Assembly (NCBI GenBank): GCA_028288485.1
Contig: JAQBNO010000061.1
Span: 1 to 41,983 of the forward strand
Reading direction: 5' to 3'
DNA: 41,983 bases
DNA from: Segetibacter sp.
GTDB taxonomy: Bacteria; Bacteroidota; Bacteroidia; Chitinophagales; Chitinophagaceae
The position numbers and the translations under genes were made by a program. Under the pieces are notes generated by a model. The model ran no database searches, was not told the DNA's origin, and saw only the letters and a program-made list of their open reading frames with translations. Shown piece by piece: positions 4,626 through 38,916 of this stretch; position 1 is the stretch's first letter; each line of letters opens with the position of its first letter.

Positions 4626-4645
4626 GTTGCGTCGCACTCTTTTAC
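4626..4645 (+). repeat. dispersed intergenic box, copy a
   Basis: The sequence GTTGCGTCGCACTCTTTTAC differs by one base from the consensus GTTGCGTCGCACTCTTGTAC. I cannot see a clear CCGGC box 21-25 nt upstream (TTAGCAAC lies there), so this copy looks decayed on that side. Confidence 0.75.
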
Positions 4646-4763
4646 TTTCGTGTTGTTACTCAACAACCCACGTTTTATAGAGATAAAAATGATACCATCT
4701 TTTTAAAAGTCACTCATCATTCCCTAATTGTAATTCAATGCGGTTTAGTGAACGTTTGTCGCC

Positions 4764-4826
4764 GTGGGCTTGTCGAAGGGCATACAATTATTCTTTTCGT
4801 AATAAGGCTTCGACAGGCTCAGCCTC
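4764..4826. repeat. inverted REP-like repeat of the CTTCGACAGGCTCAG type
   Basis: Two arms face each other: GGGCTTGTCGAAGGGC near 4766-4781 and AAGGCTTCGACAGGCTCAGCC near 4803-4823. They can form a stem of about 14 pairs with some mismatches around an AT-rich loop. Motifs of this kind are widespread intergenic repeats in many bacteria. A second, tandem version is at 38790-38829. Confidence 0.6.
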
Positions 4827-4957
4827 ACATCATACTGTAGTTTAAGGCAACGACATGGAATTGAAGTTTATCTCAATTAAGTATATATTAGTTGTGGCAC
4901 TGTAGTTCTTTTTTTTAACCTACAATAACTTAGATTTATCCCGTTAACAACGTTAAT

Positions 4958-6736
4958 ATGAAGTATCTATTGTTTATTGCTATTGCAGCCTTGTCTTTTA
5001 CAGCCTGTAAACTTAGCAACACCAACCCCGGAAAAAAAGAAAATAAGGAATTGAATGTTTTATTTGAGAGATACTATGAAGAACGCCTGAAGTTATTTCC
5101 CCTGGAGGCGACAGCAATAGGCGACACTCGTTACAATAATCTTTTGCCAATTGATTTTACTGTTAGTTATCGCGATTCTCTTAAAAGCTTTTTCAAAACT
5201 TATCTTACTTATCTTAATCAATACGATCGTGAAAGCTTAAATGATAAGGATAAGATCAGTTACGATGTGTTTAAAAGAGAGATGCAAATAAACATAGAGG
5301 GCTTCAGCTTTACCGATCATTATATCCCCTTCCAGCAGTTTACCGGCTTACCATTAACAATGGGCCAGTTGGGAAGTGGTGATGGGAACCAGCCTTTTAA
5401 AACCGTCAAAGATTATGACGACTGGTTAGCTCGTGCTTCCCGTTTTTCTATATGGGCCGATAGTGCCATTGTATACTTCAAAAAAGGTATTGCCGCAAAT
5501 TATGTATTGCCAGGAGCTTTGGTAGTAAAAATGATCCCCCAAATGGAAGCAATGGAAGCTAAGGATGATACAGCAAGTTTGTTTTATAGCCCTGTAAAAA
5601 AGTTTCCTGCAAGTTTTTCTGATGCTGATAAAGCCCGCTTGACGGCTGCATTTAAAACTTTAATTCACGACGAACTACTTCCTTCGTACAACAAACTGGG
5701 CGATTTTCTAAAGAATGAATACCTGGGCAAGGCAAGAACGACGTCAGGAATAAGTGCTTTAGAAAATGGAGATAAATATTATAGCTATCAGATCAGGTTA
5801 CAAACAACCACCAATAAAACACCCAACGAGATTTACCAGGTCGGTCTTGCTGAAGTTGCAAGAATTCGGAGGTTACAGGATAGTGTAAAAAATACAGTAG
5901 GTTTCAACGGTGATCTACAGGCTTTTTTTGAATTTATGAAAACAGGCAAACAATTCATGCCTTACAAAACGCCGGAGGAAATACTGTCGGCGTTTGAGGA
6001 AATTCACAAAAAGATGGAACCGAACCTTGAAAGAATGTTCCGTCATACACCGAAAACACCTTTTGAAATCAGGCAAACCGAAGCATATCGCGCCGCAAGT
6101 GCAAGTGCAGAATACAACCAGGGCTCGCCGGATGGATCCCGTCCCGGGATTTTTTATGTTCCCATATTAAACCCGTCCCAGTTCAATTCTACCAGCGGAA
6201 TGGAAAGTTTGTTTTTGCACGAAGCAATTCCGGGTCATCATTACCAAATATCTCTACAGCAGGAAGACTCAACTTTACCAAAGTTTCGACGGTTTGGTGG
6301 AAATAATGCTTACATAGAAGGCTGGGCATTGTATTGCGAGTCGTTGGGTAAAGAGTTGGGTTTATATACAGATCCGTATCAATATATGGCGGCTTTAGGC
6401 GATGAAATACATCGGGCAATACGTTTGGTGGTTGATGTTGCTTTGCATACAAAAGGCATGACCCGCGAAGATGCTATAAAATACATGATGGCGAATGAAG
6501 CTGCAAGCGAACAATATGCCACAATGGAAATTGAAAGATACATGGCTATTCCAGGGCAGGCATTAGGATACAAAATCGGTGCTTTAAAAATTGGGGAACT
6601 AAGAAATAAGTATGAAAGAAAACCGGGTACTACATTTAACCTTGCAAATTTTCACGACAACATTCTCAAGGATGGAGCACTGCCTTTAGATGTATTAGAA
6701 ATGAAGATGGATGAGTGGGCGAAGCGGCAGAAGTAA
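4958..6736 (+). CDS. DUF885 family putative metallopeptidase lipoprotein
   Basis: This 592-aa protein has a lipoprotein signal peptide (hydrophobic 3-14, lipobox LSFTAC, lipidated Cys17), so it is anchored in the cell envelope facing the periplasm or surface. The DUF885 domain spans most of the remainder. The conserved zinc-binding helix HEAIPGHH starts at His421, followed by NAYIEGWALYCESLG, which supplies the further acidic ligand, and a C-terminal PGQALGYKIG motif. The family is related in fold to the M32/M3 gluzincins and is thought to be peptidase-like; the substrate is not known. The start is an ATG directly before the signal peptide. It is monocistronic and is followed by repeat copy b. 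Confidence 0.9.
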   Translation: MKYLLFIAIAALSFTACKLSNTNPGKKENKELNVLFERYYEERLKLFPLEATAIGDTRYNNLLPIDFTVSYRDSLKSFFKTYLTYLNQYDRESLNDKDKISYDVFKREMQINIEGFSFTDHYIPFQQFTGLPLTMGQLGSGDGNQPFKTVKDYDDWLARASRFSIWADSAIVYFKKGIAANYVLPGALVVKMIPQMEAMEAKDDTASLFYSPVKKFPASFSDADKARLTAAFKTLIHDELLPSYNKLGDFLKNEYLGKARTTSGISALENGDKYYSYQIRLQTTTNKTPNEIYQVGLAEVARIRRLQDSVKNTVGFNGDLQAFFEFMKTGKQFMPYKTPEEILSAFEEIHKKMEPNLERMFRHTPKTPFEIRQTEAYRAASASAEYNQGSPDGSRPGIFYVPILNPSQFNSTSGMESLFLHEAIPGHHYQISLQQEDSTLPKFRRFGGNNAYIEGWALYCESLGKELGLYTDPYQYMAALGDEIHRAIRLVVDVALHTKGMTREDAIKYMMANEAASEQYATMEIERYMAIPGQALGYKIGALKIGELRNKYERKPGTTFNLANFHDNILKDGALPLDVLEMKMDEWAKRQK

Positions 6737-6797
6737 GTAAGCCTCAGTCGCACAGTAAGCACTTTTTCGGTTTTAATTGATGAATAACGGTCAAAAG

Positions 6798-6856
6798 GTT
6801 GCAGTGTGCGACGCAACAAAAGCACAAAAACGATTTGATGGCGGCAACATGAAAAT
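6798..6856 (-). repeat. dispersed bipartite intergenic element, copy b
   Basis: Read on the minus strand, box A is TTTTCATGTTGCCGCC (6841-6856 region), then comes a 22-nt spacer, then box B GTTGCGTCGCACACTGCAAC (6798-6817). Box B is identical over 20 bases to copy i at 32856. In this subtype the box ends GTTGC and GCAAC can pair with each other. It lies between DUF885 and the glycosyltransferase. Confidence 0.75.
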
Positions 6857-6932
6857 TTCTTTACAAATTTCAGGGAGGTGAATTGTATTGGAAATAATAA
6901 AAGAATTTACAATCACTCCTACCTTTGACCGT

Positions 6933-8060
6933 ATGAGGATTGCAGTTGATACAAGGTTTTTGCAGCAGGAAGATTTGGGTGCTCACAAAGGTTTTTCAGG
7001 GGAAGTATTCGCAAGCCTTGCTGAAAAACATCCGGAAGAACAGTTTTTCTTCTTGTTGGATCGACGCGTTAACGGTTCTCTTAAACTTCCACCCAATGTT
7101 TCTCTAATTATAATTACCCCGGGAGCAACAGGTTTTTTACGCCAACGATGGTGGTTTGATATTAAAGTTCCTTCTGCGTTAAAAAACTGCAAGGCAGACG
7201 TTTTTGTATGTCCAAATAGTGCCTGCAGTTTAACAACATCGGTCCCGCAAGTGTTAATCATTCAGGAACTCCTGGTTCCCGCGGCTTCCAAATCTTTTTC
7301 TAAACTCTTTACCTACTTCCATTATGAATTTCTTTCCCGGTTGTTGAGAAAGGCAAAGAAAGTAGCTACACTTTCAACTTTCGTTAAAAAAAGACTTGCA
7401 GATAAGTACAAAATTGCCGCTGAAAAAATTGAAGTTATCAGCAGCGCCGGTAATAGTTTATGTACTGCTTTAGATTGGCAGGAGAGAGAGCAAATGAAAG
7501 AACTGTACGCCGCAGGTTGCGAATATTTTGTTTTTCCTGTAGCACCTTACAATAGAAAAAGCATGGTAGGTGTATTGAAAGCTTTTTCAATTTTCAAAAA
7601 GTGGCAGAAAACAAATATGAAACTGGTAATTGTTGGAGCTGTACCGGCTGGTGTTAAGGAGGAAGGTGAAAATCTTAATAACTATAAATACAGGACTGAA
7701 ATTAATATAACAGGAACTGTATCAGCAGATGAAAGTGCAAAAGTTGTTGCCGGTGCTTATGCTATCGTTTACCCCTCTCATCACGAGCAATTTCCAGCGG
7801 CCGTTGTAGATGCAATGGAGTGCAACGTACCTGTAATTACCTCCAGGACTGGCAGTATTCCTGAAATTGCCGAAGAAGCTGCTTTGTATGTTAGCACTGA
7901 AAATCCACACGAAATGGCCGAGCAGATGAAACGCATTTTCAAAGACGAACAACTTAGAAACAAACTTATACAAGAAGGAAAACAACGGGCCTCACTTTTT
8001 AACTGGGATAAAACCGTTGATCTTCTATGGAACACTATTCGACAGGCTGTTTCCAAATAA
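6933..8060 (+). CDS. family 4 glycosyltransferase
   Basis: This retaining GT4 (GT-B fold) enzyme has 375 aa. The N-terminal domain begins MRIAVDTRFLQ, the usual first strand. The C-terminal domain carries the nucleotide-sugar EX7E region in PSHHEQFPAAVVDAMECNVPVI and SRTGSIPEI. It likely transfers a sugar onto a cytoplasmic-face lipid or polysaccharide intermediate; donor and acceptor cannot be told. I place the start at the ATG 6933. The frame also opens with TTG at 6888, seven bases after GGAGGTG, a strong Shine-Dalgarno-like run that is unusual in this phylum, so a 15-residue longer form is possible. A TACCTTTG box (6920-6927) just upstream of the ATG matches the Bacteroidota -7 consensus. 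Confidence 0.88.
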   Translation: MRIAVDTRFLQQEDLGAHKGFSGEVFASLAEKHPEEQFFFLLDRRVNGSLKLPPNVSLIIITPGATGFLRQRWWFDIKVPSALKNCKADVFVCPNSACSLTTSVPQVLIIQELLVPAASKSFSKLFTYFHYEFLSRLLRKAKKVATLSTFVKKRLADKYKIAAEKIEVISSAGNSLCTALDWQEREQMKELYAAGCEYFVFPVAPYNRKSMVGVLKAFSIFKKWQKTNMKLVIVGAVPAGVKEEGENLNNYKYRTEINITGTVSADESAKVVAGAYAIVYPSHHEQFPAAVVDAMECNVPVITSRTGSIPEIAEEAALYVSTENPHEMAEQMKRIFKDEQLRNKLIQEGKQRASLFNWDKTVDLLWNTIRQAVSK

Positions 8061-8067
8061 TCTCCCT

Positions 8068-8075
8068 TACTTTTG
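8068..8075 (+). promoter_or_regulatory. possible -7 promoter box before gldC
   Basis: TACTTTTG fits the Bacteroidota TAnnTTTG -7 element and lies 68 bp upstream of the gldC start. No good TTG -33 element is at the expected distance, so this is a weak call. Confidence 0.3.
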
Positions 8076-8143
8076 TGGCTTTAGGTACAAAAATTGATTT
8101 TGCTTCTTCAATTTTATACCTTCCATAATTAATTAAGATAGAA

Positions 8144-8494
8144 ATGCAAAACAGCACGATAACAATCGACGTTCAATTAGATCCTGACAAAGTACCACAA
8201 CAGATTTCCTGGCGTGCTTCGGATAGTACTGCAGATATGGCTCAAAAGGCAAAGGCAATGATGATCTCTTTTTGGGATGGAGCTGATAAGTCTGCCCTTC
8301 GAATTGACCTTTGGACGAAAGATATGATGGTAGATGAAATGGCAGACTTCTTTTACCAAACCATCATGACAATGGCCGACACATACGACAGGGCGACCCA
8401 AAATAAGGAGCTTTGTTCGGACATGAAAAATTTTGCGAAAGATTTTTATGCGAAATTCAGAGAGTCTCAGCTGGATACCAATAAGCTGGTGTAA
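8144..8494 (+). CDS. gldC: gliding motility protein GldC
   Basis: GldC is a Bacteroidota protein of about 110-120 aa first defined by Flavobacterium gliding mutants, where it supports motility and type IX secretion without being absolutely required. The 116-aa product contains the typical core of KAMMISFWDGADKSALRIDL followed by a WTKDMMVDEMADFF helix. There is no signal peptide, so it should be cytoplasmic. The gldB gene that often precedes gldC in other genomes is not in this window; a glycosyltransferase lies there instead. It heads a plus-strand run with yqeY and cvpA. Confidence 0.9.
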   Translation: MQNSTITIDVQLDPDKVPQQISWRASDSTADMAQKAKAMMISFWDGADKSALRIDLWTKDMMVDEMADFFYQTIMTMADTYDRATQNKELCSDMKNFAKDFYAKFRESQLDTNKLV

Positions 8495-8561
8495 CGTTCT
8501 TCAATTTTAACGACACTCCCCGAGTAGAACTCCATTTCCTAACATCATTAAATTAAATACC

Positions 8562-9014
8562 ATGGGTCTCGAACAAACTATAATGGCCGACATGAAAGAG
8601 GCCATGAAAGCTAAAAATGAAGCTGCATTACGCGGGTTAAGAGCTATAAAAGCAGCCATAATTATTGCAAAAACAGCTGAGGGTGCAGGCGGGGAACTTA
8701 AAGAAGAAGATGAAACGAAGCTTTTGCAAAAGCTGGTAAAGCAACGGCGCGACAGCCTGGAGATCTTTCAAAAGCAAAACCGCGAAGACCTTGCGCAAAA
8801 AGAACAGGAGGAAATATCTGTTATCGAGAAATTTCTGCCGAAACAACTAAGCGAAGACGAACTAAAAAGTGGCCTGGCAGAAATTATTGCACAGGTAGGG
8901 GCTTCTTCTCCCGCTGACATGGGAAAGGTGATGGCAGCAGCGTCAAAGCAATTTGCCGGAAAGGCAGAGGGGAAAGCGATCTCTACCGCGGTCAAAGACC
9001 TTCTTTCTAAATAA
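8562..9014 (+). CDS. GatB/YqeY domain-containing protein
   Basis: This 150-aa all-helical protein is of the YqeY family, homologous to the tail domain of the GatB subunit of tRNA amidotransferase. It starts MGLEQTIMADMKEAMKAKN, contains LLQKLVKQRRDSLEIF and EEISVIEKFLPKQLSEDEL, and ends with the typical DMGKVMAAASKQFAGKAEGKAIS segment. The family is presumed to bind tRNA or act in translation quality control, but no reaction has been shown for stand-alone YqeY. The ATG start lies 67 bp after gldC. A hairpin plus T-run follows it. Confidence 0.92.
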   Translation: MGLEQTIMADMKEAMKAKNEAALRGLRAIKAAIIIAKTAEGAGGELKEEDETKLLQKLVKQRRDSLEIFQKQNREDLAQKEQEEISVIEKFLPKQLSEDELKSGLAEIIAQVGASSPADMGKVMAAASKQFAGKAEGKAISTAVKDLLSK

Positions 9015-9029
9015 TATAGCTCCGTTTAC

Positions 9030-9077
9030 AATTCCGGAATCGGTTTTAACTTCTCCGTTCCGGAATTTATTTTTATT
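9030..9077 (+). terminator. rho-independent terminator after yqeY, abutting cvpA
   Basis: AATTCCGGAA (9030-9039) pairs with TTCCGGAATT (9058-9067) around an 18-nt loop and is followed by TATTTTTATT. Each arm also contains the 8-bp palindrome TTCCGGAA. The T-run ends 3 bases before the ATG of the next gene. Confidence 0.7.
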
Positions 9078-9080
9078 AAA

Positions 9081-9614: not shown

Positions 9615-9703
9615 GATATTAATCATATCATTTGCACAACTTTTCTGCTATTTTAGGTGTATAACCTAATTCATTTCCAAAGAGAGTTCATTTGTTTACC
9701 CGA

Positions 9704-9721
9704 ACGAAAGCTTTCTTTCGT
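9704..9721. repeat. short hairpin upstream of the alpha/beta hydrolase
   Basis: ACGAAAG (9704-9710) and CTTTCGT (9715-9721) form a 7-bp stem with a CTTT loop. No T-run follows, so it is more likely an mRNA leader structure or an operator-like dyad than a terminator. Confidence 0.35.
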
Positions 9722-9774
9722 ATTATTTGTGTTTATTTGTAAAAATAAGATCCGCTCAAAGACTGTAACTGCAG

Positions 9775-10554: not shown

Positions 10555-10591
10555 AGTTTGATAAATTAATGAAAAACAGAGGACTACATAA

Positions 10592-12808: not shown

Positions 12809-12842
12809 GCGCCGCTCTTTTTAAACTTTATCGCAGCGTTTA

Positions 12843-12901
12843 TTTTTTTTGGTTGCCGGCATTAATTTAATAGAATCTTTTGTTGCGTCGCACTCTTGTA
12901 C
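12843..12901 (+). repeat. dispersed bipartite intergenic element, copy c
   Basis: Box A TTTTTTGGTTGCCGGC ends at 12860. A 21-nt AT-rich spacer precedes box B GTTGCGTCGCACTCTTGTAC at 12882-12901, identical to copies d and j. A further CACCGGC lies 16 nt downstream (12916-12922). It sits between the POTRA-barrel gene and nadK. Confidence 0.85.
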
Positions 12902-13019
12902 TAGATACCTTTGTGCACCGGCTTAAATCATTTACCCAATGCCGCAGTTTAATCCATCTATTTTATCCCTGTCGTACTTAAATCTGTAACTTTAAACTAA
13001 TAGCACACTAATTCATTTA

Positions 13020-14804: not shown

Positions 14805-15064
14805 CATTATATCTTATAAACGATATAATTCTTTAATTACTTCATTTCCCTTATCATACCCCGTAGGTGCGAACACAAGTTTCTGCCGGTCGGTAAAAAA
14901 ACTATAATGCAGAAATAGGTACTTCTGTATGCACTCCTGTTTTTGTTTGAAAACATATTTATAATGTCAGTTATTGTAGTATCGGGTTCGAGGATCTTCA
15001 GATGAACACGGCTGGCAGTTTTGCTGCTATTTGCGGTGTATCGGCCGCTCATTGTAATTTAACT

Positions 15065-15084
15065 GTACAAGAGTGCGACGCAAC
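15065..15084 (-). repeat. dispersed intergenic box, copy d
   Basis: On the minus strand this is GTTGCGTCGCACTCTTGTAC, identical to copies c and j. A T-run with GGGTAC (15113-15123) lies 28 nt upstream on that strand, farther than in the other copies, so the box A assignment here is doubtful. Confidence 0.8.
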
Positions 15085-15242
15085 AATGCTATTTTATGAA
15101 ATACAAATGTTTGTACCCAAAAATTGCTCTCTGGTCCCTACTTCAATTGATACGATAACAGATATATAAAGATTAACAATAAAAGCACGCTTATGATCTC
15201 TTAGTTATTATAAATCTTTTCTACTTAAACAATTCGTTTTGC

Positions 15243-15250: not shown

Positions 15251-15274
15251 CCCTCCTAAACACTGGTGCTTTAA

Positions 15275-22794: not shown

Positions 22795-22795
22795 T

Positions 22796-24123: not shown

Positions 24124-24184
24124 TAACCTATATGTTGAAACTGTAATTGTTTGTTTTTAAATCTTTCTCATCTCGGAAATTATA

Positions 24185-24240
24185 TTTTTGTTACCGGCCG
24201 AAGAATAGCAATTTCACATTGTTGTGTCACTCCCTTGTAC
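24185..24240 (+). repeat. dispersed bipartite intergenic element, copy e
   Basis: Box A TTTTTGTTACCGGC (24185-24198), a 22-nt spacer, and box B GTTGTGTCACTCCCTTGTAC (24221-24240). Box B is identical to copy h at 28660. Box A is identical to that of copy g at 27867. A second CCGGC follows directly (24240-24244). Confidence 0.85.
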
Positions 24241-24341
24241 CGGCAGTAAACCCTTCAGCATTTTTAAAGAAGTAAATTCAGCCGTTGGCAGTTGTAAACA
24301 TTTCGAAGCAAAACATTGAAAAAGCTGCTGCTTGATATGCG

Positions 24342-24400
24342 GTACAAGTGAGTGACACAACGATGTTGATTAAAGCTTAACTGTCTGTCCCGTAAAAAAA
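24342..24400 (-). repeat. dispersed bipartite intergenic element, copy f (inverted partner of e)
   Basis: On the minus strand, box B is GTTGTGTCACTCACTTGTAC (24342-24361), one base different from copy e. The box A candidate TTTTTTTACGGGAC (24387-24400) lies 25 nt upstream. Together with copy e it forms a 216-bp inverted structure with about 101 bp between the boxes. Confidence 0.75.
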
Positions 24401-24411
24401 GAGACCCATTG

Positions 24412-27791: not shown

Positions 27792-27866
27792 GAGTATTTT
27801 TTGAGGCTGCAAGTTAAGGAAGGAATGTGTGTGCAGAAACGATATATAGGTGACCTTGGAGATATG

Positions 27867-27940
27867 TTTTTGTTACCGGCGTAAGCAACTCCGATTAAAC
27901 ATTCTTGCGTCGCATTACGTTCATCTTTCGAAGTACCGGT
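27867..27940 (+). repeat. dispersed bipartite intergenic element, copy g (decayed box B)
   Basis: Box A TTTTTGTTACCGGC (27867-27880) is identical to that of copy e, also preceded by an AT-rich GATAT. After 23 nt comes CTTGCGTCGCATTACG (27904-27919), which keeps only the first half of box B. GTACCGG follows at 27933-27939. It lies between the exonuclease and Uma2 genes. Confidence 0.7.
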
Positions 27941-27979
27941 GAACCTTTTTTTTGAAGCGGAATTTTGGAGTAAAATAAG

Positions 27980-28534
27980 CTATGAATAAACGTGCTTCAG
28001 CTGAAATGAAAAGTTGTTAATAGCATCAAGTTTAATGACATCGTCAAGGTTTGTAAATTTCGATGTGCTCCATTCATTGTTATCTTTTTTGTAACGAGTG
28101 ATCAAGGTAGTTTCTGGTTCAATAATCAAATAATAAAGGAGAGATGGAATTTTTGTGTAAGCAATATACTTATCTACATAGTCTGTAACATGTGTAGTTT
28201 CTGAAACTACTTCAATAATAAGGATCGGTTCTGACTTAATATATTTGTTGATGTCTGTTTTTGCTTCTTTTGTTACAAATACGTCGGGATAATAGTATTT
28301 GTTTTCACCAAAGACTTTCACTTTTACGTCATGATTATAAACGAAGTATCCGAAAGATTTTAAGAGTGTGGTAAGCAAAACATACAAGCAACCTGCTATC
28401 TCATTATTAATATCTTTTTCACCAGCCATTTCAAAAAGTTGACCATTGACAAATTCGCTTCGTACAGCAGATTTCAATTCGTGTTCAACGTATTCTTCGA
28501 CAGTGTAGATCTTATCTTTATTTTCAACCTGCAT
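27980..28534 (-). CDS. Uma2 family (DUF820) putative endonuclease
   Basis: This 184-aa protein has the PD-(D/E)XK nuclease-like fold. The acidic residues lie in YYYPDVFVTKE and EPILIIEVVSETT, and the N-terminal YTVEEYVEHEL and FVNGQLFEMAG segments are typical. Uma2 genes are common in Bacteroidota and cyanobacteria, usually in many copies per genome; whether they cut DNA is largely untested. ATG start at 28534; a TTG six codons earlier is possible. It stands alone between two dispersed-repeat copies (g and h), a setting consistent with a mobile or recently gained gene. Confidence 0.85.
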   Translation of the reverse strand: MQVENKDKIYTVEEYVEHELKSAVRSEFVNGQLFEMAGEKDINNEIAGCLYVLLTTLLKSFGYFVYNHDVKVKVFGENKYYYPDVFVTKEAKTDINKYIKSEPILIIEVVSETTHVTDYVDKYIAYTKIPSLLYYLIIEPETTLITRYKKDNNEWSTSKFTNLDDVIKLDAINNFSFQLKHVYS

Positions 28535-28659
28535 GTTAGACCCTTTACTCAAATATACAAATTATAAATGCACCTTCTTTCTGCTAACGATTTAAAATTG
28601 GGAATTGTAAATGCGGAGAGAATTTAAAGGTCAGGAAAAGGATGCAATGAAAAGATACG

Positions 28660-28718
28660 GTACAAGGGAGTGACACAACAGTAGCTCCACAATGGAGCAC
28701 TGTTGGTCAAACAAAAAA
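28660..28718 (-). repeat. dispersed bipartite intergenic element, copy h
   Basis: On the minus strand, box B GTTGTGTCACTCCCTTGTAC (28660-28679) is identical to copy e, and the flanking T before it and CCG after it are shared too. Box A candidate TTTTTTGTTTGACC (28705-28718) is 25 nt upstream. The spacer holds a GCTCCA/TGGAGC mini-hairpin. Confidence 0.8.
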
Positions 28719-28747
28719 TAACGAAAATGTAAGAGAGGGAAGTTTTG

Positions 28748-31477
28748 CTAAGCATCATATTCCAACACCGGTCGCAGCCATCTTTCTACCTCTTCAATTT
28801 CCATGTTCTTACGTTTGGCATAATCCAGCACCTGGTCTTTTTCAATTTTACCTATGCCGAAATATTTACTTTCGGGGTTTGCGAAATACCAGCCGCAGAC
28901 AGAAGATGCAGGGTACATTGCAAGGCTTTCTGTAAGCTGGATACCTGTTGCATTGGTTGCATCTAATAAAGCAAAGAGCTTGTATTTTTCGGTATGATCA
29001 GGACAGGCAGGATAACCAGGTGCAGGGCGAATTCCTAAGTATTTTTCTTTGATGAAATCTTCGTTTGTCAGATTTTCATCTTTCACATAACCCCAATATT
29101 CCGTCCTGGTTTTATAGTGCAGAAACTCGGCAAATGCTTCGGCGAAACGATCGGCAAGTGCTTGTAAAGAGATCTTATTGTAATCGTCGTGTTGCTCGTT
29201 GAAACGTTTCAAATGAGGCTCAATGCCATCAATCGTAACAGCAAAGGCGCCGATATAATCCTGTAAACCTGTTTCTATTGGCGCAATAAAATCAGTTAAC
29301 GACATATTTGGCTGACCTTCTGCTTTTTTAACCTGCTGGCGTAATGATTCAAGTTCTACAATGGTAGATAATTCATCGGTTACTGTAATAGTGTCTTTGC
29401 CATTAGAATTTGCGGGCCAGAAACCAATAACACCTTTTGCCGTCAGCCACTTTTCTTCGATGATCTGCTTCAGTAAAGCCTGCGCATCGTTGTAAAGCTT
29501 TGTCGCCTCTTTGCCTACTTTCTCATCGCTTAAAATTTGCGGAAACCTTCCATGAAGTTCCCATGCTATAAAGAAAGGCTGCCAATCGATATATTGAGCA
29601 ATTTCAGCCAGGTCGTGATCTATGAAGGACTTTGTACCGATAAAAGAAGGCTTAACCGGTGTAAATTTCTGCCAGTCGATCTTCACTTTATTCTGCTGTG
29701 CGTCTTCCAACTTTAAGTAAGCTTTCGTTACTTTCTTGTTACCGAAATCTTCTTTAAGCTTCCTGTATTCTTCGTACATTTTCTTTACGAAGTCGGGCTT
29801 TTGTTCTTTGCTCAACAAAGAACCAGCTACAGTTACGCTTCTTGATGCATCTAATACGTGAACAACTCCTTCCTGGTATTCCGGGGCGATTTTTACTGCA
29901 GTATGCATGCGGCTGGTGGTGGCGCCTCCGATTAATAACGGAAGGTTCATGTTTTGCCGTTTCATTTCCCGGGCAATGTGAACCATTTCATCCAGAGAAG
30001 GAGTAATGAGGCCACTTAAACCAATAATATCGACTTTCTCCCTGCGGGCCGTTTCCAATATTTTATCTGCAGAAACCATTACACCAAGATCAATAATGTC
30101 GTAACCATTACAGCCGAGAACAACCCCAACAATATTTTTACCGATATCGTGTACATCGCCTTTTACGGTAGCTAATAAAATTTTTGCTGCGCCTGCACCT
30201 TCTTCATTTACCGTGCCTGCAGCGATGTGTGCCAGCCTGCGTTCTTCTTTTTCTGCCTCTATAAAAGGAAACAGGTAGGCTACGCTTTTCTTCATTACCC
30301 TTGCACTTTTTACCACCTGTGGCAAGAACATTTTTCCGCTTCCAAACAAGTCGCCTACTATGTTCATTCCATCCATTAAAGGGCCTTCAATTACATCAAG
30401 CGGTTTTGAATATTTCTGTCGCGCTTCTTCTGTGTCTGCTTCTACATAATCTGTAATTCCATTTACCAGTGCGTGTGAAAGTCTTTTCTCTACGGGCTCA
30501 TTCCTCCATGCTTCGTCTTTAACCGTTACTTTACCTTTTGCCTTAACGGTTTCTGCAAAGTTTATAAGAGCTTCTGTTGCCTCGTTGTTGTCGTTGTTGC
30601 GGTTTAAGATCACATCTTCACAAAGGTCTTTCAGCTTTGGTTCAATCTCGCTATACACCTGCAACTGACCTGCATTAACAATACCCATGTCCATTCCTGC
30701 CTGGATAGCATAGTAGAGGAACACCGCATGTATTGCTTCACGAACGTGATCGTTTCCGCGGAAGGAAAATGAAACGTTACTTACCCCTCCGCTTACTTTA
30801 GCAAGCGGCATTTTTTGTTTGATCTCTCTTGTAGCTTCTATAAAATCAACAGCATAATTGTTATGTTCTTCTATACCTGTAGCTATTGCAAATATGTTTG
30901 GATCAAAGATGATATCCTGAGGGTCATAACCAACCTGTTCTGTTAAGATCTTATAAGCTCTTTCACAGATCTCCACCTTCCTTTTCTTAGTATCGGCCTG
31001 ACCTATTTCATCAAAAGCCATTACGATCACCGATGCACCATAGCTTTTGCAGATGAAGGCCTGGTCGATAAACTTCTCTTCCCCTTCTTTCATGCTGATC
31101 GAGTTTACGATACACTTCCCCTGTACACATTTTAAACCTGCCTCAATGATCTCGAACTTTGAGCTGTCGATCATGACAGGGATCTTGGCAATATCAGGCT
31201 CGGCCTGTAGAAGGTTTAGGAAAGTTGTCATGGCATGAACGCCTTCCAGTAAAGCATCATCCATGTTTACATCAAGGATCTGCGCGCCACTTTCTACCTG
31301 CTGGCGTGCAACGGACAATGCTTCCTCGTATTGGTTGTCGCGTATAAGACGGGCAAATTTTTTGGAACCGGTAACGTTAGTACGTTCGCCTACGTTTACA
31401 AAGTTTGTTTCCGGACGAACGACCAGTGGTTCTAAGCCCGAGAGGCGTAAGTAAGGTTTAATAACTGTTGAACTCAT
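28748..31477 (-). CDS. metH: cobalamin-dependent methionine synthase, C-terminal polypeptide
   Basis: This 909-aa polypeptide carries the pterin-binding, cobalamin-binding and reactivation modules of MetH. In order: the methyltetrahydrofolate domain (about 20-290, [26 protein letters not shown]), the four-helix cap, the B12 domain with [20 protein letters not shown] (the His that ligates cobalt) and the SAM-dependent activation domain (about 590-909) with [15 protein letters not shown]. It needs the homocysteine-binding module encoded upstream at 31674 to work. Together the two lengths equal a normal single-chain MetH. The ATG start is preceded by a motif also found before the N-terminal gene. 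Confidence 0.95.
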
Positions 31478-31487
31478 TTGTTTTCTA

Positions 31488-31508
31488 TTGAACCACTAAG
31501 GCACTAAG
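31488..31508 (-). repeat. short motif upstream of metH C-terminal gene
   Basis: On the plus strand the 21-nt stretch begins TTGAACCACTAAGGCACT. On the minus strand it ends 10 bp before the ATG. A related 21-mer (16 of 21 identical) is at 32707-32727, 7 bp before the N-terminal gene, and an inverted relative is at 31628-31667. Confidence 0.5.
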
Positions 31509-31627
31509 TAGCCAAAGCAGCGCTAAGGTTATTACTTTCTTTTTATACTACCCGCTATAGTATTATTCTTTTAATTCGATCTGTAATAAGCGGGACATGA
31601 AAATTTATTAAAAAGCCTAATCTCTTT

Positions 31628-31667
31628 CTTTGTGCTACTTCGTGTTGCTTAGAGACTTGGTGTTTCA
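31628..31667 (+). repeat. inverted relative of the metH upstream motif
   Basis: The stretch runs CTTTGTGCTACTTCGTG, then TTGCTTAGAGACTTGGTGTTTCAA. Its complement aligns, with a gap, to the motif at 31488-31508 and its continuation TAGCCAAAG. The two bracket most of the 196-bp metH intergenic region. Confidence 0.45.
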
Positions 31668-31673
31668 AAAAAA

Positions 31674-32699
31674 TTATAAGGATTCTTCCAATACCGGCAA
31701 TTCCCTTGGTCTAAACTTTCTCACTTCGTCTGCGATATGTTTGATATGGTCGGGTGTTGTTCCGCAGCAGCCGCCTACTATGTTTACAAAACCTTCCTGC
31801 GCCCATTCTTCGATAATATGGGCGGTTTCGTGTGGTTGCTCGTCGTATTGCCCGAAAGCATTTGGTAAGCCTGCATTTGGATATGCTGAAGTATAACATT
31901 CAGCAATCTGGCTTAGCTCTTCAATATGCGGTCGCATTTGAGTGGCACCAAGAGCGCAGTTCAAACCAACGCTTAAAGGTTTCGCATGGCGGATGGAAGT
32001 GTAAAAAGCTTCAAGGGTCTGGCCACTCAAAGTTCGTCCGGAAGCATCGGTTATGGTTCCGCTGATCATTATCGGAAGTTCCTGCATTTTATTATCCCTG
32101 AAGAATTTCTTCACCGCGTATATCGCTGCTTTTGCATTCAAGGTATCGAAAATAGTTTCGATCAGCAATACATCTACACCTCCGTCGACCAGGGCTTTGA
32201 TTTGTTCGGTGTATGCTGATGCCACTTCATCAAAAGTTACTGCGCGGTAGCCGGGATTGTTTACATCGGGTGAAAGGCTAAGCGTTTTGTTGAGCGGACC
32301 GATGGCTCCGGCAACCCACGCACCGCTCCTGTTGCTTGCTTCAGGCGATGCAAGAAACTTTTCAATCGCGTTCCTCGCACATTTCGCTGAAGCTACGTTT
32401 AACTCGTAAGCCAGCGATTGCATGTCGTAGTCGGCCTGCGCAATGCTGGTACTGCTGAAAGTGTTCGTTTCTATAATATCTGCACCGGCAGCAAGGTACT
32501 GCAGGTGAATTTCTTCAATGATTTGCGGTTGGGTGATGCTCAACAGGTCGTTATTACCTTTCACATCGGTATGCCAGTCTTTAAATCGCTCACCACGGTA
32601 GTCCGCTTCTTCAAGATTGTGCCGCTGAATCATAGTGCCCATGGCGCCGTCGATGATCAGGATCCGTTTTTCAAGTTCTTTGCGAATGTCCATATACAT
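31674..32699 (-). CDS. metH: methionine synthase N-terminal polypeptide (homocysteine S-methyltransferase domain)
   Basis: This protein of about 341 aa forms the TIM-barrel homocysteine-binding module of Met[16 protein letters not shown] is the usual start, and the three zinc ligands are the Cys in GLNCALG and the Cys pair in [11 protein letters not shown]. It receives the methyl group from methylcobalamin on the partner polypeptide encoded 196 bp downstream. Splitting of MetH at this domain boundary is common in Bacteroidota, so this is not a pseudogene. Two ATGs (32699 and 32693) could serve as the start; the frame continues upstream without conserved sequence. Confidence 0.93.
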
Positions 32700-32706
32700 T
32701 GTTTTT

Positions 32707-32727
32707 TTGAACCACCGAGCCGCTAAA
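32707..32727 (-). repeat. short motif upstream of metH N-terminal gene
   Basis: On the plus strand the stretch begins TTGAACCACCGAGCCGCT, 16 of 21 identical to 31488-31508 and in the same orientation, ending 7 bp before the ATG. Confidence 0.5.
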
Positions 32728-32812
32728 AAACAAAGTGGTACAAGTGTTCTATTATTTGGCTGCAAGACGAAAAGGCAGCGCAACGATTAATTATTTATTG
32801 TATTGATGGAGC

Positions 32813-32856
32813 CACCTGTAATTCTTCTCTGCATCAGCAGCTAAGAATTACAGGTG
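32813..32856. repeat. 14-bp perfect inverted repeat
   Basis: CACCTGTAATTCTT (32813-32826) is perfectly complementary to AAGAATTACAGGTG (32843-32856), with a 16-nt loop. There is no T-run, so it is not a simple terminator. Its last base is the first base of element copy i. Confidence 0.7.
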
Positions 32857-32911
32857 TTGCAGTGTGCGACGCAACGATATTGAACATAGTTGTGAAGCCG
32901 ACCTCCAAAAA
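32856..32911 (-). repeat. dispersed bipartite intergenic element, copy i
   Basis: On the minus strand, box A TTTTTGGAGGTCGGC (32897-32911), a 21-nt spacer, then box B GTTGCGTCGCACACTGCAAC (32856-32875), identical to copy b. It lies between metH and the LytTR regulator gene. Confidence 0.8.
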
Positions 32912-33160
32912 GATCTTTAGCTAACTATAAACGAGAACAATCTGGGAAAAGGATGCAGAGTGAGTTCGTTTATTAGTTCAGTCAATCCGATCTTTAAAAT
33001 CAACAGGTTGAACAATAAACAAAGCCGCCTGTTGAAGTTGCGCGAAATTAAAGAAAAAAGGTTGAACCCCCAAACCTCCTCCCGTATTGGCACCGGCAGG
33101 GCTAAAGACTCCTCAAACGCGAAAGTTGTTTGGGATCCAGGAAATGAATAATTACCTTAA

Positions 33161-33922: not shown

Positions 33923-36885
33923 TCCTTATTTGTAAAAAGTGGTATAAGTACGGTAAAAGAATGTGGTGTCTTGTTGATCACGATGTCGTCGTTAAGCAGC
34001 AGCTTGTAACGCTTCCGGATATTTTGCAAACCCATTCCGGCACCCTTTTCTGAAGTGACTTTTGGATTTAGATTATTTGTAACAACGATAAACTTTCCGT
34101 CGATAGTTAGTTCAATAACCAGCGGCGTTTCTGATGAAATTGCATTGTGCTTTACTGCATTTTCAGTCAAAAGCTGCAGTGTTAGCGGTGCAATCATACA
34201 ACATGCCTGGTCGGTTTTCGAAATATTATTATTGAATACGAGGTTTTCGCCAAACCGTTTCTTCTGAATAAAAAAATAGTCGTTTATAAGTTCAATTTCT
34301 TCTTCGAGGCTAATCACTTCTTTGTCGCGGTAAGTAACAATTTTTCGATACAGATCGGAAAGGCGCTCTACATACTCGACTGCCATTTGCTGATCATCTT
34401 CTATTACAGCAATAAGGGTATTAAAACTATTAAAAAGAAAATGGGGGTTAACCTGGCTTTTTAATGTTTCAAACTGCGATTGAATTTTTTCCTTTTCCAT
34501 TCTTTCCCACCGTTTTACGCTTTTTTCCCTGCTTTTGGTATACAGGTACACCGCCGAAGCCAGCGCGATCAAAACCAGGCTGAGGAACCACCATTGAAGC
34601 CAGAAAGGCTTTTGAATAATAAAAGTATAAGATACCTCTTCGCAGTCGTTGAACTGATTGTTAACGGATGCGCGAACATGAAACGTATAAGTGCCCGGAG
34701 GAAATTTAGGAAAATTAATATGACTGTCTTTTGTAGTTACCCATTGGTTACTAAAGCCCTCGACCTTATATTGATACCTTATTTTTTCGGGGTGCGAATA
34801 GGATATACCAACATAAGAGAAAGTGAAATTGTTTTCGTCGTAAGAGAACTTTCGTGCGTGTTTTACATCTATATCATTCAGAAACAGCTGTACACCTTCC
34901 AATACTATTTTCGGCTTTAAGGAGGTACCTGTGGGAATATAACGAAGTATGCCTTTATTGCTGACAAAATAAACAGCATCTTTCCCGGTAATTGAATTAA
35001 GGTCGGTATTTACTTCCTCCAGCCCCTGGTTGATATCGAGGTAAGAAATACCGTTGGTTTCGGCATTAATAATGTTGACGCCTTTTTTACTTATCGCGAT
35101 AATGTTATTTTTTTTGTCTAAGGCCAGGGCTGTTATCGTCACATCGTTCAGGCCTTGCTCTAAAGAAATATTCAGGAATTTTTTACCGTCATACTTATAG
35201 AGCCCATTATTTAAAGCGCTGAACCAGATATTACCACCTTTATCTTCGCAGATATTATAAATGACCAGGCTTTTTATTCCGCTGCTTTCGTTGTAATTTT
35301 TAAACCTTCCGTTTTCGTACACCGTAATTCCCCTGCCATCTGTAGCAAACCAAACCCTGTTTTTACTATCGACCAAAGTGCTGTAAACGAAATTGCTGCC
35401 GATGCCACTCACATTTTTAAAGTTGAGGAAAGTATAGGGCCTGTAAATATTTTTATTCTCGTCGCTTAAATTGCAATGAATTGCTCCTGCAAGACTACTG
35501 ATCCAAACCTCGTCGCCTTTTCCGCTGATGGAAAGAATACTGCCGTTAATCAATAACGGATCCTCTGTAATGTTCCGGTTTTTGCCGCTTACAGGATCAA
35601 TAAGAATTATTCCTTTCCCCATTGTGGCTACCCAGATATTGCCAAACCTGTCTTCAAATAAGGAAGTGATATCGGTTTTAGTATCTATCTCGGGTAAGGG
35701 GTAATTTTTGAATTGCCATTCCCCCTTATCTACGTCGAAATAGTACTTCTTTAATCCCCCAATAACATTGATCCATATATTGCTCTTATTGTCTTCCAGG
35801 ATGGTATGGATCTCGGGGTAAATTTCCTTACTGATCGGGATGATATTTTGCAGGCGGGCCCCATTCGTTTTTATTAACTGGTGGTTACTGGTAAACCAAA
35901 TATTGCCCTCGTCATCTGCCAGTAAATTCCTCGCTTTGCCATAGCCAGCATATCCATTCGTTATTCCTGAAACCCTGGTCATGTTTTTATCTGCATAGTT
36001 CACGATCACCACTCCATTGTTTTCCGTTGCCACCCATAACTGGTTTTCGGCTGTTATCAGCGAGTTTACCTGGCCGTACTTCCAGTATTTTAGATACCCC
36101 TCTTTACTTGCCCTGGCGTCAAAAGGAAAGTATTCACCTATGCCTGCATCCTGCATTCCTATCCAAAACTGGTTTTCAACGGACTTGGTGCCGTTTATTT
36201 TCTTATTATATAGGCAACGAACGATGTTGTCGGGCAGGCCATCGGCTGAAGTAAAGGGGTGTATTTCCTTTTTTCCATCCCTTATTGTAATTGTATTTAA
36301 ACCACGGTCAGTACAAACAACCATGGTGCCGTTACTGACTATAAGGTCATAAACATAGTTGTCGCTTAGCCCATCGTCCGTATTTATGTTATAAAACCGC
36401 TTGTCTTTATAATAGTAAATGCCTTCACCCGCAGTGGCAAAGTAAATAATGCCCGAAATATCTGCTGATATAGATGTGATGGCCACAGCAGGATGTCCTT
36501 CTTCGGCATGCAATAATTCAACTTTTTTGTTAATTACAAAACCAATTTCCCCACTTTGAAATCCTAGCCACACCGTCGAATTTTTGTCTTCTGCGATAGC
36601 TGTGACCGACTTATTTGTAATGGAGCTACTAAGAACAAAAGGGGTAAAGATATTGCCGTCGAACTTGTAAAGTCCGTTGGATGTGCCGGCGAGAAAATAG
36701 CCCTTGCTGTGTTTTTTTAAAGAAAGTAGTTGTGGACTTGCCCCTTCAGACCGTATGGTATAAGCGCCGCTTACCTGGGAAAAAGCAGCATCAGAGACTA
36801 ATAAAATAAGTAGAGAAAGGATTGTATGCTTAAGCAAGTGGTTATTTATTTTATCGGGGTTCCAACTCGCAATGTACCTTAACAT
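33919..36885 (-). CDS. LytS-type sensor histidine kinase with beta-propeller sensor
   Basis: This 988-aa membrane sensor has a signal peptide or anchor (about 17-37), then a large periplasmic reg_prop two-bladed propeller sensor. Repeats of the type SVTAIAEDKNSTVWLG and ITSLFEDRFGNIWVAT run to about residue 640. A Y_Y_Y domain (about 690-755, ISYSHPEKIRYQYKVEGF) follows, then a transmembrane helix (765-782) and a His_kinase domain with NPHFLFNSFN (phospho-acceptor His815). The ATPase part contains LLTENAVKHN and GAGMGLQNI. This layout is shared with Bacteroidota one- and two-component polysaccharide sensors. Its start overlaps the yceI gene by 35 bp. Confidence 0.93.
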   Translation of the reverse strand: MLRYIASWNPDKINNHLLKHTILSLLILLVSDAAFSQVSGAYTIRSEGASPQLLSLKKHSKGYFLAGTSNGLYKFDGNIFTPFVLSSSITNKSVTAIAEDKNSTVWLGFQSGEIGFVINKKVELLHAEEGHPAVAITSISADISGIIYFATAGEGIYYYKDKRFYNINTDDGLSDNYVYDLIVSNGTMVVCTDRGLNTITIRDGKKEIHPFTSADGLPDNIVRCLYNKKINGTKSVENQFWIGMQDAGIGEYFPFDARASKEGYLKYWKYGQVNSLITAENQLWVATENNGVVIVNYADKNMTRVSGITNGYAGYGKARNLLADDEGNIWFTSNHQLIKTNGARLQNIIPISKEIYPEIHTILEDNKSNIWINVIGGLKKYYFDVDKGEWQFKNYPLPEIDTKTDITSLFEDRFGNIWVATMGKGIILIDPVSGKNRNITEDPLLINGSILSISGKGDEVWISSLAGAIHCNLSDENKNIYRPYTFLNFKNVSGIGSNFVYSTLVDSKNRVWFATDGRGITVYENGRFKNYNESSGIKSLVIYNICEDKGGNIWFSALNNGLYKYDGKKFLNISLEQGLNDVTITALALDKKNNIIAISKKGVNIINAETNGISYLDINQGLEEVNTDLNSITGKDAVYFVSNKGILRYIPTGTSLKPKIVLEGVQLFLNDIDVKHARKFSYDENNFTFSYVGISYSHPEKIRYQYKVEGFSNQWVTTKDSHINFPKFPPGTYTFHVRASVNNQFNDCEEVSYTFIIQKPFWLQWWFLSLVLIALASAVYLYTKSREKSVKRWERMEKEKIQSQFETLKSQVNPHFLFNSFNTLIAVIEDDQQMAVEYVERLSDLYRKIVTYRDKEVISLEEEIELINDYFFIQKKRFGENLVFNNNISKTDQACCMIAPLTLQLLTENAVKHNAISSETPLVIELTIDGKFIVVTNNLNPKVTSEKGAGMGLQNIRKRYKLLLNDDIVINKTPHSFTVLIPLFTNKE

Positions 36886-37405
36886 TAATCTCGCTGCTGA
36901 GTTTATCTTTTACAACTTTTGGAATAGGAATATTATGGTCGCTTAGTAAAACTGTAAAAGCAGATTTAATATTAATCTTGCCATCTTTAACAGTAACGTC
37001 GCTTTTAACGATCCTTTCCTGGGATACGCCATGAATTGAAAAATTTCCCTTAGCCCTTACAACGTAAGACCCATTTTTGGTAAAGTCAATGTCTTCAATA
37101 ATTTTACCGCTGAAAGTTGCTTCGGGGAATTTATTGCTTTCCATGTAATTCTCGTTAAAGTGTTCTTTCTGAAGAGCACTATTAAATCCATCGAAGCTTT
37201 GAACATGCACTCTAAACGCAAAGATTTTTTTATCATTATCAAGTAAGCCTTTTAATTGGCTGCTTGTTGCTTTAATGGTTTCGAAAGGAGCTTCAGACTG
37301 GAAGTCGATTTTTCCTGACCGGATAGAAAAAATTTTTCCTCCCTGTGCACCCAGTGAGGAAAAGCTTAGTAATAATATAGCGAGTGCAAATAATCTACCC
37401 TTCAT
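36851..37405 (-). CDS. YceI family periplasmic protein (copy next to kinase)
   Basis: This 184-aa protein has a signal peptide (1-20, ending SSLGAQ) and one YceI lipocalin-like barrel, a fold that binds isoprenoid chains such as quinone-type lipids. Conserved segments are KIDFQSEAPFETIKA, HFNENYMESNKFPEATF and GNFSIHGVSQ. It is a paralogue of the protein at 38953. Its 3' end overlaps the kinase start by 35 bp, so the sensor is translationally linked to it. The ATG at 37405 fits the signal peptide; the frame extends upstream without support. Confidence 0.88.
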   Translation of the reverse strand: MKGRLFALAILLLSFSSLGAQGGKIFSIRSGKIDFQSEAPFETIKATSSQLKGLLDNDKKIFAFRVHVQSFDGFNSALQKEHFNENYMESNKFPEATFSGKIIEDIDFTKNGSYVVRAKGNFSIHGVSQERIVKSDVTVKDGKINIKSAFTVLLSDHNIPIPKVVKDKLSSEINVKVHCELEPR

Positions 37406-37476
37406 TTTCTTTTCTTTTGTTAGAATATGTGAGCACGAACTCCAACTATTTCCCACTTTGCAATTGAGGAAGACAG

Positions 37477-37534
37477 TTTTTTGGGTCCTGGCAATGTGAA
37501 TTCTATTTAGCTTTGTTGCGTCGCACTCTTGTAC
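37477..37534 (+). repeat. dispersed bipartite intergenic element, copy j
   Basis: Box A TTTTTTGGGTCCTGGC (37477-37492), a 22-nt spacer, then box B GTTGCGTCGCACTCTTGTAC (37515-37534), identical to copies c and d. It lies between yceI and DUF5777, oriented against both genes. Confidence 0.85.
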
Positions 37535-37655
37535 ATTTTTTTATTTATGCAACCATTTTACTTTATCTGTAAACGCATATAAAGTTGGTGTTATTTTTTT
37601 TATTAAGTTATCTTTTTCACCAGGGGCAAAAGAAATAAGTATTCTGAAAACGCCC

Positions 37656-38597
37656 TTAATTTGTTTTCGCAGTTCTGTTTTTCTTTTTGCCTCCGATAAC
37701 AAATACCCGTGAGATATTGAAGCCGAAATGAATATCGCCCAATCCCCATTGCCCGGTTGTTTCTGTAATAAATGAACTTTCTGTCATTGGTGTTGAATTG
37801 GTAAAATGTAATTGGAAAACATGCCCGCCGGTTTCAATATCGAAGCCTATCGACAAAGAATTATAATATTGTATTGCACTATCAAGAGGCACTGTCCTGG
37901 TTTTTGGCAAAACGTAATAATATTCCGCATTAATACTTACCCGTTTAGAGATCTTTTGGCGTCCTCCCAATCCTATTGCCGCAACGTCGTTGCGTGAACC
38001 TTCAGGCACGCGGTTGTGGTGTACAACGGTGGGCATCACTTGTAAAGAAGTGTTGTCACTAAATTTCCTGGCTATAATCAATTGAAACGCGTAGTTCAAC
38101 TTGTTAGAGAAATGGTTCTTATTAATGCCATCATCCGGCACCACCGCCGTTTTAATCATCATAGCGGATAAAAATCCAACTGATACAGGCATGTTTCGTT
38201 TACCCGTTGATTGGCGGATTAACTTATATCTTAAGAACCCGTCGTATTGCTTCTGAAAAGTGCTGCGGCCGACGCCTATCATCAGCTTATCGGTTATTCC
38301 ATAATCAAAACCAAAACGCATCCTGGCATTATCAAAGCCCCACAGATCTTTTGCACCCTGGTTAAGCATCCCAAAACGGTGAGATACTTTGAGATCCAAT
38401 ATGCCTTTCGGCGTATTTTCAATACTATGCCCATTAATGATGCGTGTAGTTTTAAAAGTCGCTCTAGTATAATCTGTTCGGTTTTTATCTTCTTGTCTTG
38501 TTTCTTCATCCAGCATCTTAAATAAGTCAACTTCCTGTGCTGTTGCACCAACTGCAATAAAAGCAGCGAGCAGAAGGGTTATAATTTTATTATTCAT
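37656..38597 (-). CDS. DUF5777 family outer-membrane beta-barrel protein
   Basis: This 313-aa protein has a signal peptide (1-20, ending GATAQ), then KMLDEETRQEDKN and a predicted outer-membrane barrel with strands such as GILDLKVSHRFG, MRFGFDYGITDKLMIGVG and GGHVFQLHFTN. It matches DUF5777, of unknown function, which is often found beside YceI and cytochrome genes in Bacteroidota. It may form a pore or a docking site in the outer membrane for the haem lipoproteins encoded upstream; that role is inference. The start is ATG. Repeats separate it from both neighbours. Confidence 0.85.
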   Translation of the reverse strand: MNNKIITLLLAAFIAVGATAQEVDLFKMLDEETRQEDKNRTDYTRATFKTTRIINGHSIENTPKGILDLKVSHRFGMLNQGAKDLWGFDNARMRFGFDYGITDKLMIGVGRSTFQKQYDGFLRYKLIRQSTGKRNMPVSVGFLSAMMIKTAVVPDDGINKNHFSNKLNYAFQLIIARKFSDNTSLQVMPTVVHHNRVPEGSRNDVAAIGLGGRQKISKRVSINAEYYYVLPKTRTVPLDSAIQYYNSLSIGFDIETGGHVFQLHFTNSTPMTESSFITETTGQWGLGDIHFGFNISRVFVIGGKKKNRTAKTN

Positions 38598-38775
38598 GAG
38601 ATAGTTTGGTTTATAGGTTAAGAGCAGTATTTAATGGCTTAACTAATCAGGTCGAAATGCATTCTGGAAGAACTAAAAATGAAAGTGTTGCAACACATTT
38701 CTCATTAATATCCGGCAGTCAACTTTTGTCGCCGGTTTATCTAACACCTCCACTCCGTTGCATGCTGAACACAAA

Positions 38776-38788
38776 GTACAAGAGTGCG
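38776..38788 (-). repeat. truncated dispersed box, copy k
   Basis: GTACAAGAGTGCG matches 13 bases of the complement of the consensus box and is then replaced by the CCCTTCG-type tandem repeat, as if one repeat had inserted into or recombined with the other. Confidence 0.6.
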
Positions 38789-38789
38789 G

Positions 38790-38829
38790 CCCTTCGCCAA
38801 GCTCAAGGTCCCTTCGGCAGGCGCAGGGT
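38790..38829 (+). repeat. tandem 20-bp repeat of the CCCTTCG type
   Basis: CCCTTCGCCAAGCTCAAGGT (38790-38809) is followed directly by CCCTTCGGCAGGCGCAGGGT (38810-38829), 16 of 20 identical. It belongs to the same broad type as the inverted pair at 4764-4826. Confidence 0.65.
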
Positions 38830-38859
38830 AAAAACTGCCACGGTGAATAATGAGTTACA

Positions 38860-38916
38860 GTACAAGCGAGCGTGGCAACAATGAATCATAGTAGAAAAAA
38901 AGCCTGGTCCACAAAA
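38860..38916 (-). repeat. dispersed bipartite intergenic element, copy l (divergent box B)
   Basis: On the minus strand, box A TTTTGTGGACCAGGC (38902-38916), a 22-nt spacer, then GTTGCCACGCTCGCTTGTAC (38860-38879). Only the outer parts of box B (GTTGC and CTTGTAC) are kept, but length and spacing are as in the other copies. Confidence 0.7.

Follow-up and report, generated by a model that had tools for sequence, protein, structure and literature searches.

The question raised by this locus is what the short sequence is that recurs, in both orientations, between the genes of a Segetibacter sp. genome, and what keeps it recognizable. In the window, that is, the whole stretch of 41,983 nucleotides analysed here (contig JAQBNO010000061.1), an initial annotation had recorded a 20-nt box, which we treat as the core of the element, at 12 places, often with a T-rich box A upstream. 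The finding was confirmed and proved to be of greater extent than first recorded: the core pattern, GTTGYGTCRCWCNCTTGTAC, matches the 6,375,045-base genome 1174 times at three mismatches or fewer (580 and 594 by strand), versus 2 + 0 matches for the same pattern read backwards, and 27 of the 59 relatives searched have matches at two mismatches or fewer. Our tentative answer, to which we give somewhat less than an even chance, is that the element is an old recognition site in DNA, derived from a mobile element and preserved intact for a putative protein, perhaps at gene boundaries. Below, G000 is the window genome, G001 to G009 are the nine other members of the genus, and G013, G033, and G034 are other relatives.

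An arm-core-arm element between genes

The element is about 80 bp long and non-palindromic, and is composed of a left arm, the 20-bp core and a right arm, as profiled from 82 copies in 442 kb, 77 copies of G001 and 61 copies of G013. The left arm presents, in order, a T-run, which in most copies ends between -37 and -31, then a G and an ACCRGC-like word with its end near -23, followed by CTATT near -14 and, just before the core, CATC (-4 to -1) or CTTT, so that the spacer, earlier described as not conserved, does contain conserved CTATT and CATC. Neither is the element limited to two boxes: a right arm extends to about +39, with CTATTCAGC-like last letters, and directly repeats the left-arm motif, CTATTNAGC being found in both arms, near -13 and +31. 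The proposed fixed upstream distance of box A holds, as 141 of the 192 box-A-like words located 12-35 nt upstream of 251 cores are at 21-23 nt (38, 77, and 26, respectively, with the mode at 22 nt), while for such words downstream of the core, the control, the distribution of distances is flat. Modelled without the core, the left arm holds about 19 bits of information, and in 1.55 Mb, about a quarter of the genome, this model has 239 matches of at least 8 bits vs. 8 in reversed DNA, and 153 vs. 1 at 10 bits or more.

The core types are haplotypes linked at positions 5, 9, 11, and 13, mainly TGTCACTCAC and CGTCGCACTC. Positions 5 and 9 can pair in all but one of 200 cores (T-A in 108, C-G in 91), and in 59 of 61 in G013, with the 5:11 linkage nearly as strong. 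This is the only core pair that varies and stays paired, and past the tiny core stem there is no consensus RNA fold: the fold energy of the G013 consensus is -0.4 kcal/mol for one strand and -1.4 kcal/mol for the other (0.0 for column-shuffled controls). The flanks of the core are unlike between copies, with a median identity of 37.5% on the left and 30% on the right.

As to the location, 248 of the 251 cores in the 1.55 Mb are clear of predicted genes, one being wholly inside a gene and two across an edge, and none of the 77 cores in 240 kb of G001 is in a predicted gene (genes were called with a home-made caller, which assigned 72-75% of the DNA as coding). The element is found in both orientations to genes, divergent gaps included. 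Neighbouring copies less than 700 bp apart are mostly inverted: in G000, 24 pairs are facing, four are back to back and one is direct (28 of 29 inverted), and in G001 these numbers are seven, one and none. None of the outcomes named beforehand in the initial annotation as refuting it, i.e., few copies in the genome, frequent copies in genes or a random box A distance, has occurred.

The copy number varies widely among relatives. At two mismatches or fewer, it ranges from 5 (G007) to 1350 (G001) in the nine other genus members, with 144 in G006, and reaches 549 (G034) in other genera of the family (294 in G033), while many family members have none. A scan of named genomes found at least 110 stretches with the element; among the 80 matches listed, the named genomes are all Chitinophagaceae (Segetibacter, Ferruginibacter, Niabella, Foetidibacter, and others), and the rest are metagenome-assembled genomes labelled Chitinophagaceae, Chitinophagales, Sphingobacteriales, Bacteroidota, or Bacteroidetes. 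Plasmid records gave no match. Exact cores are present in 28 viral stretches, and on phage contigs, too, the element sits between genes. One viral site is common to five contigs (L293, L294, L296, and L301 each match L299); in L293 it is located between genes matching the NinG/Rap and NinB/Orf families, with primase-helicase and replication-initiation families nearby. Another example is L313, with head-protease and tape-measure families, which has two copies and a third on the same contig. A replichore strand bias, considered for the complete genome G013, was rejected, as 400 kb of the suspect half shows both strands.

Orthologous sites and apparent insertions at the core

Synteny with nine genus members was found for positions 27820-33160 of the window, where the longest match has an identity of 74-80%. 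At locus 32856, GTTGCGTCGCAC is intact in G001, G002, G004, G005, G008, and G009, while G007, with its five intact copies genome-wide, has a changed core, GTTGCATCGCAC, and no element was found at this locus in G003 and G006. Orthologs were also found for sites 12882 and 15065 (four relatives each) and 24221 and 28660 (two each). Gaps in which no copy was found are mostly shorter, for example, those of G004 and G007 at 12882 and of G009 and G007 at 24221, the G006 gap at 24221, which is longer, being an exception. Four of the loci gave 14 ortholog pairs (G007 omitted), in which the identity is 98% (165/168) for core positions 1-12, 80% for positions 13-20, 44% for the left arm and 37% for the right arm.

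In a search free of the core pattern, 578 elements yielded 68 orthologous gaps, of which one was too short for a core and 67 were used. In 28 of these (nine loci) the best match agreed with the core of the query itself at 16-20 of 20 positions, in 39 at 8-14 and in none at 15, and the reversed-core control reached 13 at most. The core at orthologous gaps is thus either nearly intact or not recognizable, and for 25 of the 28 both cores are of the CGTCGC type. When empty sites were sought under stricter conditions, 489 elements produced three candidates, whose gaps fall short of the native 110 bases by 50-89; these lie across genera and are too diverged to place the element ends or a target site duplication. 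Overall, the core has drifted far less than the arms where orthologs were compared, which is at few loci, extended to the rest by inference.

In many copies, hairpins or a longer cassette take the position of the core. When 193 left-arm matches of at least 9 bits were sorted by rule, 92 were followed by the short core, 24 by GTTGCnnCGC forms, five by a cassette of about 470 bp and five by other TTG forms; inspected by eye, the remaining 67 had the cassette, a hairpin or a core shifted by one base, except L137:8544, L151:1618, and L192:1507. In long-form copies, such as the one at 38737-38919 of the window, hairpins stand between the GTTGC and CGCA halves; CCCTGAGCGAAGCCGAAGGG-like hairpins, at times in tandem, are seen within such copies (L038:15499, reverse complement; window 38776-38860). 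The cassette begins directly after the left arm and stops at CTTGCGTCGCAC. In G000 it occupies at least 40 distinct places (44 rows, with 40 of the 241 candidates scored), its full-length copies being 77-86% identical to the query, and among the ten genus genomes full-length single matches are confined to G000. One place in G005 matches parts 1-80 and 189-398 of the query, about 140 bp from its middle are found again in G001, G002, G005, G008, and G009, and there is no match in G003, G004, G006, and G007. The arms around cassette copies look, by eye, mutually unrelated, so the cassette most likely entered element sites that were already there; both it and the hairpins look like secondary insertions.

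Gene-bearing copies were found neither after left arms nor between cassette ends in the 1.55 Mb, nor between half-sites in about 1.03 Mb. Two cassette copies, L041:10720 (-) and L042:4535 (+), have only the right end and no left arm, as if truncated on the left. A second repeat, of about 140 bp and with a long palindrome (GTTATTGCA ... TGCAATAAC; L453:1512-1662, L452:1560-1735, L185:1628-1795), stands by itself between genes in G001 and in G000 lies within the 470-bp cassette; it matches in G000, G001, G002, G005, G008, and G009, with none in G003, G004, G006, and G007.

Possible origin and role

No named family of this layout was known to the initial annotation, and neither a matching family nor a description of this repeat was found in the literature covered, which includes the work on REPINs (doublets of repetitive extragenic palindromic, or REP, sequences) and RAYTs (REP-associated tyrosine transposases) and leaves most subscription journals outside. 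Like REPs, bacterial interspersed mosaic elements and REPINs with their RAYT (TnpA_REP), the element comes in short intergenic copies that number from hundreds to a thousand, with inverted pairs and uneven numbers among relatives. Unlike them, it is non-palindromic, with no GTAG tag and with an arm-core-arm layout of about 80 bp; a REP-type palindromic hairpin with an unpaired GTAG-like tag is absent, as core and arms form no consensus hairpin. A RAYT/Y1 transposase as the mobilizer was rejected, as Y1 genes are not flanked by the element and are missing in some of the carriers; the check for a transposase gene with matching flanks, suggested earlier, was thus negative for Y1/RAYT. Of 30 Y1 loci (best matches, with about 1.5 kb on each side where present), one has a core-like word, about 600 bp off; PF01797 has no match in G033 or G006, while of its two matches in G001 one is interrupted by three stops and the other is weak and partial.

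Another family to compare is the CGTC-tagged REPs, which are intergenic, of high copy number, with no dedicated transposase known, reported from Bacteroidetes as well, and built of CGTC, a stem of 8-9 bp and a CCA-like tail (Di Nocera, 2013; PMC3733652). The element is similarly intergenic and of high copy number, but its CGTC is inside the core without a stem of 8-9 bp, many of its copies have TGTCAC instead, and the combination of tag, stem and CCA tail is not found in its profiles and fold. With miniature inverted-repeat transposable elements (MITEs) it shares being short, non-coding, intergenic, abundant and variable in internal length, but its copies differ from one another over their length and its arms share a direct motif. 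Terminal inverted repeats were not seen in the arm profiles, as judged by eye, and a search of about one quarter of the genome revealed no autonomous element with the same ends. As the defining features of REP/RAYT and CGTC-REP systems are absent, and as a MITE with terminal inverted repeats is not supported, we would, judging from sequence, set the element as a variant of the high-copy intergenic repeats, probably distinct from the former two.

The simplest account is that of a DNA site which would come from a mobile element, be under constraint where it now lies, and be read by a putative protein. Sites that number about a thousand and have so much sequence in common cannot arise singly, so copying would have spread them, presumably once as a non-autonomous mobile element. 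The resident copies would stay intact as the recognition sites of a lineage-specific DNA-binding protein, which may read the core and, more loosely, the arms. The two-site protein target initially proposed fits the fixed geometry of arm and core, with the protein itself remaining putative. As the copies are almost only between genes and in both orientations, a gene-boundary site, such as a transcription roadblock, an insulator, or a site of local architecture, would be the likeliest role; this weakest step is a guess from position and phage carriage. It is doubtful whether one can go further, to a gene-boundary system of the Chitinophagaceae in which a lineage-specific protein would read the 80-bp site at about a thousand loci per genome, phages would keep sites between their own genes, and loss of the protein would make the sites vanish, as in G007.

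A number of observations weigh against such a constrained recognition site. A 270-fold difference in copy number inside one genus is odd for a needed site, and no binding protein was found, although no search aimed at one was made. A weak orientation bias, not expected of a symmetric boundary, is present as well: in 146 of 235 cases the gene next to the left arm is directed towards the element, and in tandem gaps the split is 89 to 56. The four loci of the 14-pair comparison were located by a core regular expression, which is why the comparison was repeated without the core pattern, and the 28 intact rows of the latter represent only nine loci, which slightly lowers the odds of this reading, with several rows for some loci, two loci reciprocal, one viral (four rows), and one comparing two places of a single locus. 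The core type differs in three rows, from two loci, and at two more loci below the cut, meaning that exchange or independent insertion occurs. Finally, about a quarter of the gaps with no recognizable core are at least of native length (quartiles of the difference -144, -79, and -1), so complete decay of the core is possible there.

The chief rival is nearly as likely: a purely selfish non-autonomous element with a REP- or MITE-like life style and a putative transposase, for which the core would be the site, with young copies replacing old ones. The high and very uneven copy number, the presence or absence at orthologous gaps, the inverted neighbours (28 of 29), the internal length variants, with a cassette amplified in one species, as judged from full-length single matches in G000 only, and the copies on phages all speak for it; indeed, the ends of a non-autonomous mobile element, as initially suggested, fit the presence/absence at gaps, the swings in copy number and the cassettes at the core position. 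What speaks against it is that old orthologous copies retain the core while their arms have drifted, that copies are unlike along their length, as the flank medians demonstrate, and that neither a gene-bearing copy, in the DNA searched as above, nor a Y1 gene flanked by the element has come to light. A structured RNA from intergenic transcripts, with the core mini-stem and the inserted hairpins as its fold, is improbable: the 5:9 pairing, the hairpin nature of the inserted modules and the weak orientation bias are in its favour, but the 5:9 pair belongs to the linked haplotypes, the consensus fold energy is near zero, and Rfam 15 has no match above gathering scores in the window. The lack of a consensus fold and the presence of both gene orientations, in divergent gaps too, point to a site in DNA rather than in RNA, and this part of the initial proposal found no support.

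DNA uptake sequences (DUS of Neisseria) and uptake signal sequences (USS of Pasteurellaceae) are known in about a thousand copies, in free orientation, with a core and a T-tract at fixed spacing. The element shares all of these traits, with its T-run, is maintained site by site and is lost in one relative, and so biased uptake of conspecific DNA could in principle keep it. We consider this very unlikely, as the element is much longer, almost only intergenic, and has several stable, linked core types and copied cassettes, and as PF00437 (the T2SSE/pilus ATPase) is unmatched in the ten genus genomes, with only 23-27 candidates scored in each, and ComEC (PF03772) is not found in the high-copy G005 and G008, while it is present in 51 of the 59 relatives searched, including genomes without copies. 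Just as little probability is given to a core rewritten in place from a template, by gene conversion or reverse transcription, in which case identity would reflect repair and not selection. Such rewriting would account for a near-identical core between drifting arms, for the change of core type at some orthologous gaps and for cassette copies 77-86% alike within arms that appear unrelated by eye, but selection accounts for the same pattern in fewer steps, and core types are kept at most of the compared loci (25 of 28 rows).

Among high-copy bacterial repeats, short palindromes predominate, and their similarity can be attributed to recent copying. In contrast, the site described here, in a family of about a thousand copies, is long and non-palindromic, with the core kept at the few comparable orthologous loci while the surroundings drifted. 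Relatives with 5 to 1350 copies offer a natural experiment on the retention of repeats in bacterial genomes, and the phage copies a small system for tests of function.

Copies in the window and unrelated repeats

All of the 12 places recorded for the 20-nt box do exist. The box is exact at 12882, 15065, and 37515, has one mismatch at 4626 and four at 6798, 24221, 24342, 28660, 32856, 38776, and 38860, while the word at 27904, which ends in a tail of a different kind (CGTCGCATTACGTTCATC), is outside six mismatches. Two further words, at 8383 and 40903, with six mismatches each, look like chance matches.

The first copy, 4586..4685 (+), has a core of the CGTCGC type with one change at 4626-4645, and the second, 6759..6857 (-), has a tail variant with a GCAAC end (core 6798-6817). 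The copies with exact cores are 12842..12940 (+; core 12882-12901), with orthologs in G005, G006, G008, and G009; 15026..15124 (-; core 15065-15084), with orthologs in G001, G005, G008, and G009; and 37475..37573 (+; core 37515-37534). The TGTCAC type is represented by 24181..24279 (+; core 24221-24240), with orthologs in G005 and G008, and by 28621..28719 (-; core 28660-28679), with orthologs in G003 and G008; the inverted partner of the former is 24303..24401 (-; core 24342-24361). The copy at 27864..27962 (+), with its core from 27904, has the CGTTCATC tail type, and a similar copy is found in G001 (L229:1337). The copy at 32817..32915 (-; core 32856-32875) is the one with the six intact orthologs and the changed core in G007. 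The words at 38776 and 38860, initially counted as separate copies, are two halves of one long-form copy, 38737..38919 (-), in which the left arm (about 38880-38919) is followed by the first core half (38860-38879), the hairpins, the second core half (38776-38795) and the right arm (about 38737-38775).

Two observations concern other repeated DNA. One is a repeat of about 190 bp (GGTTACTTTCTTTTCATCAAGGAAATGCGAAGCATT...) that is also dispersed but seems to have no relation to the element, with copies at L137:46-262, L136:18839-19031, L201:13465-13657, and L043:5654-5838. The other is one or more genes at L032:12381-16268, with long cysteine/histidine-rich tandem repeats (CKNDCNH-like), which surfaced as a repeat family.

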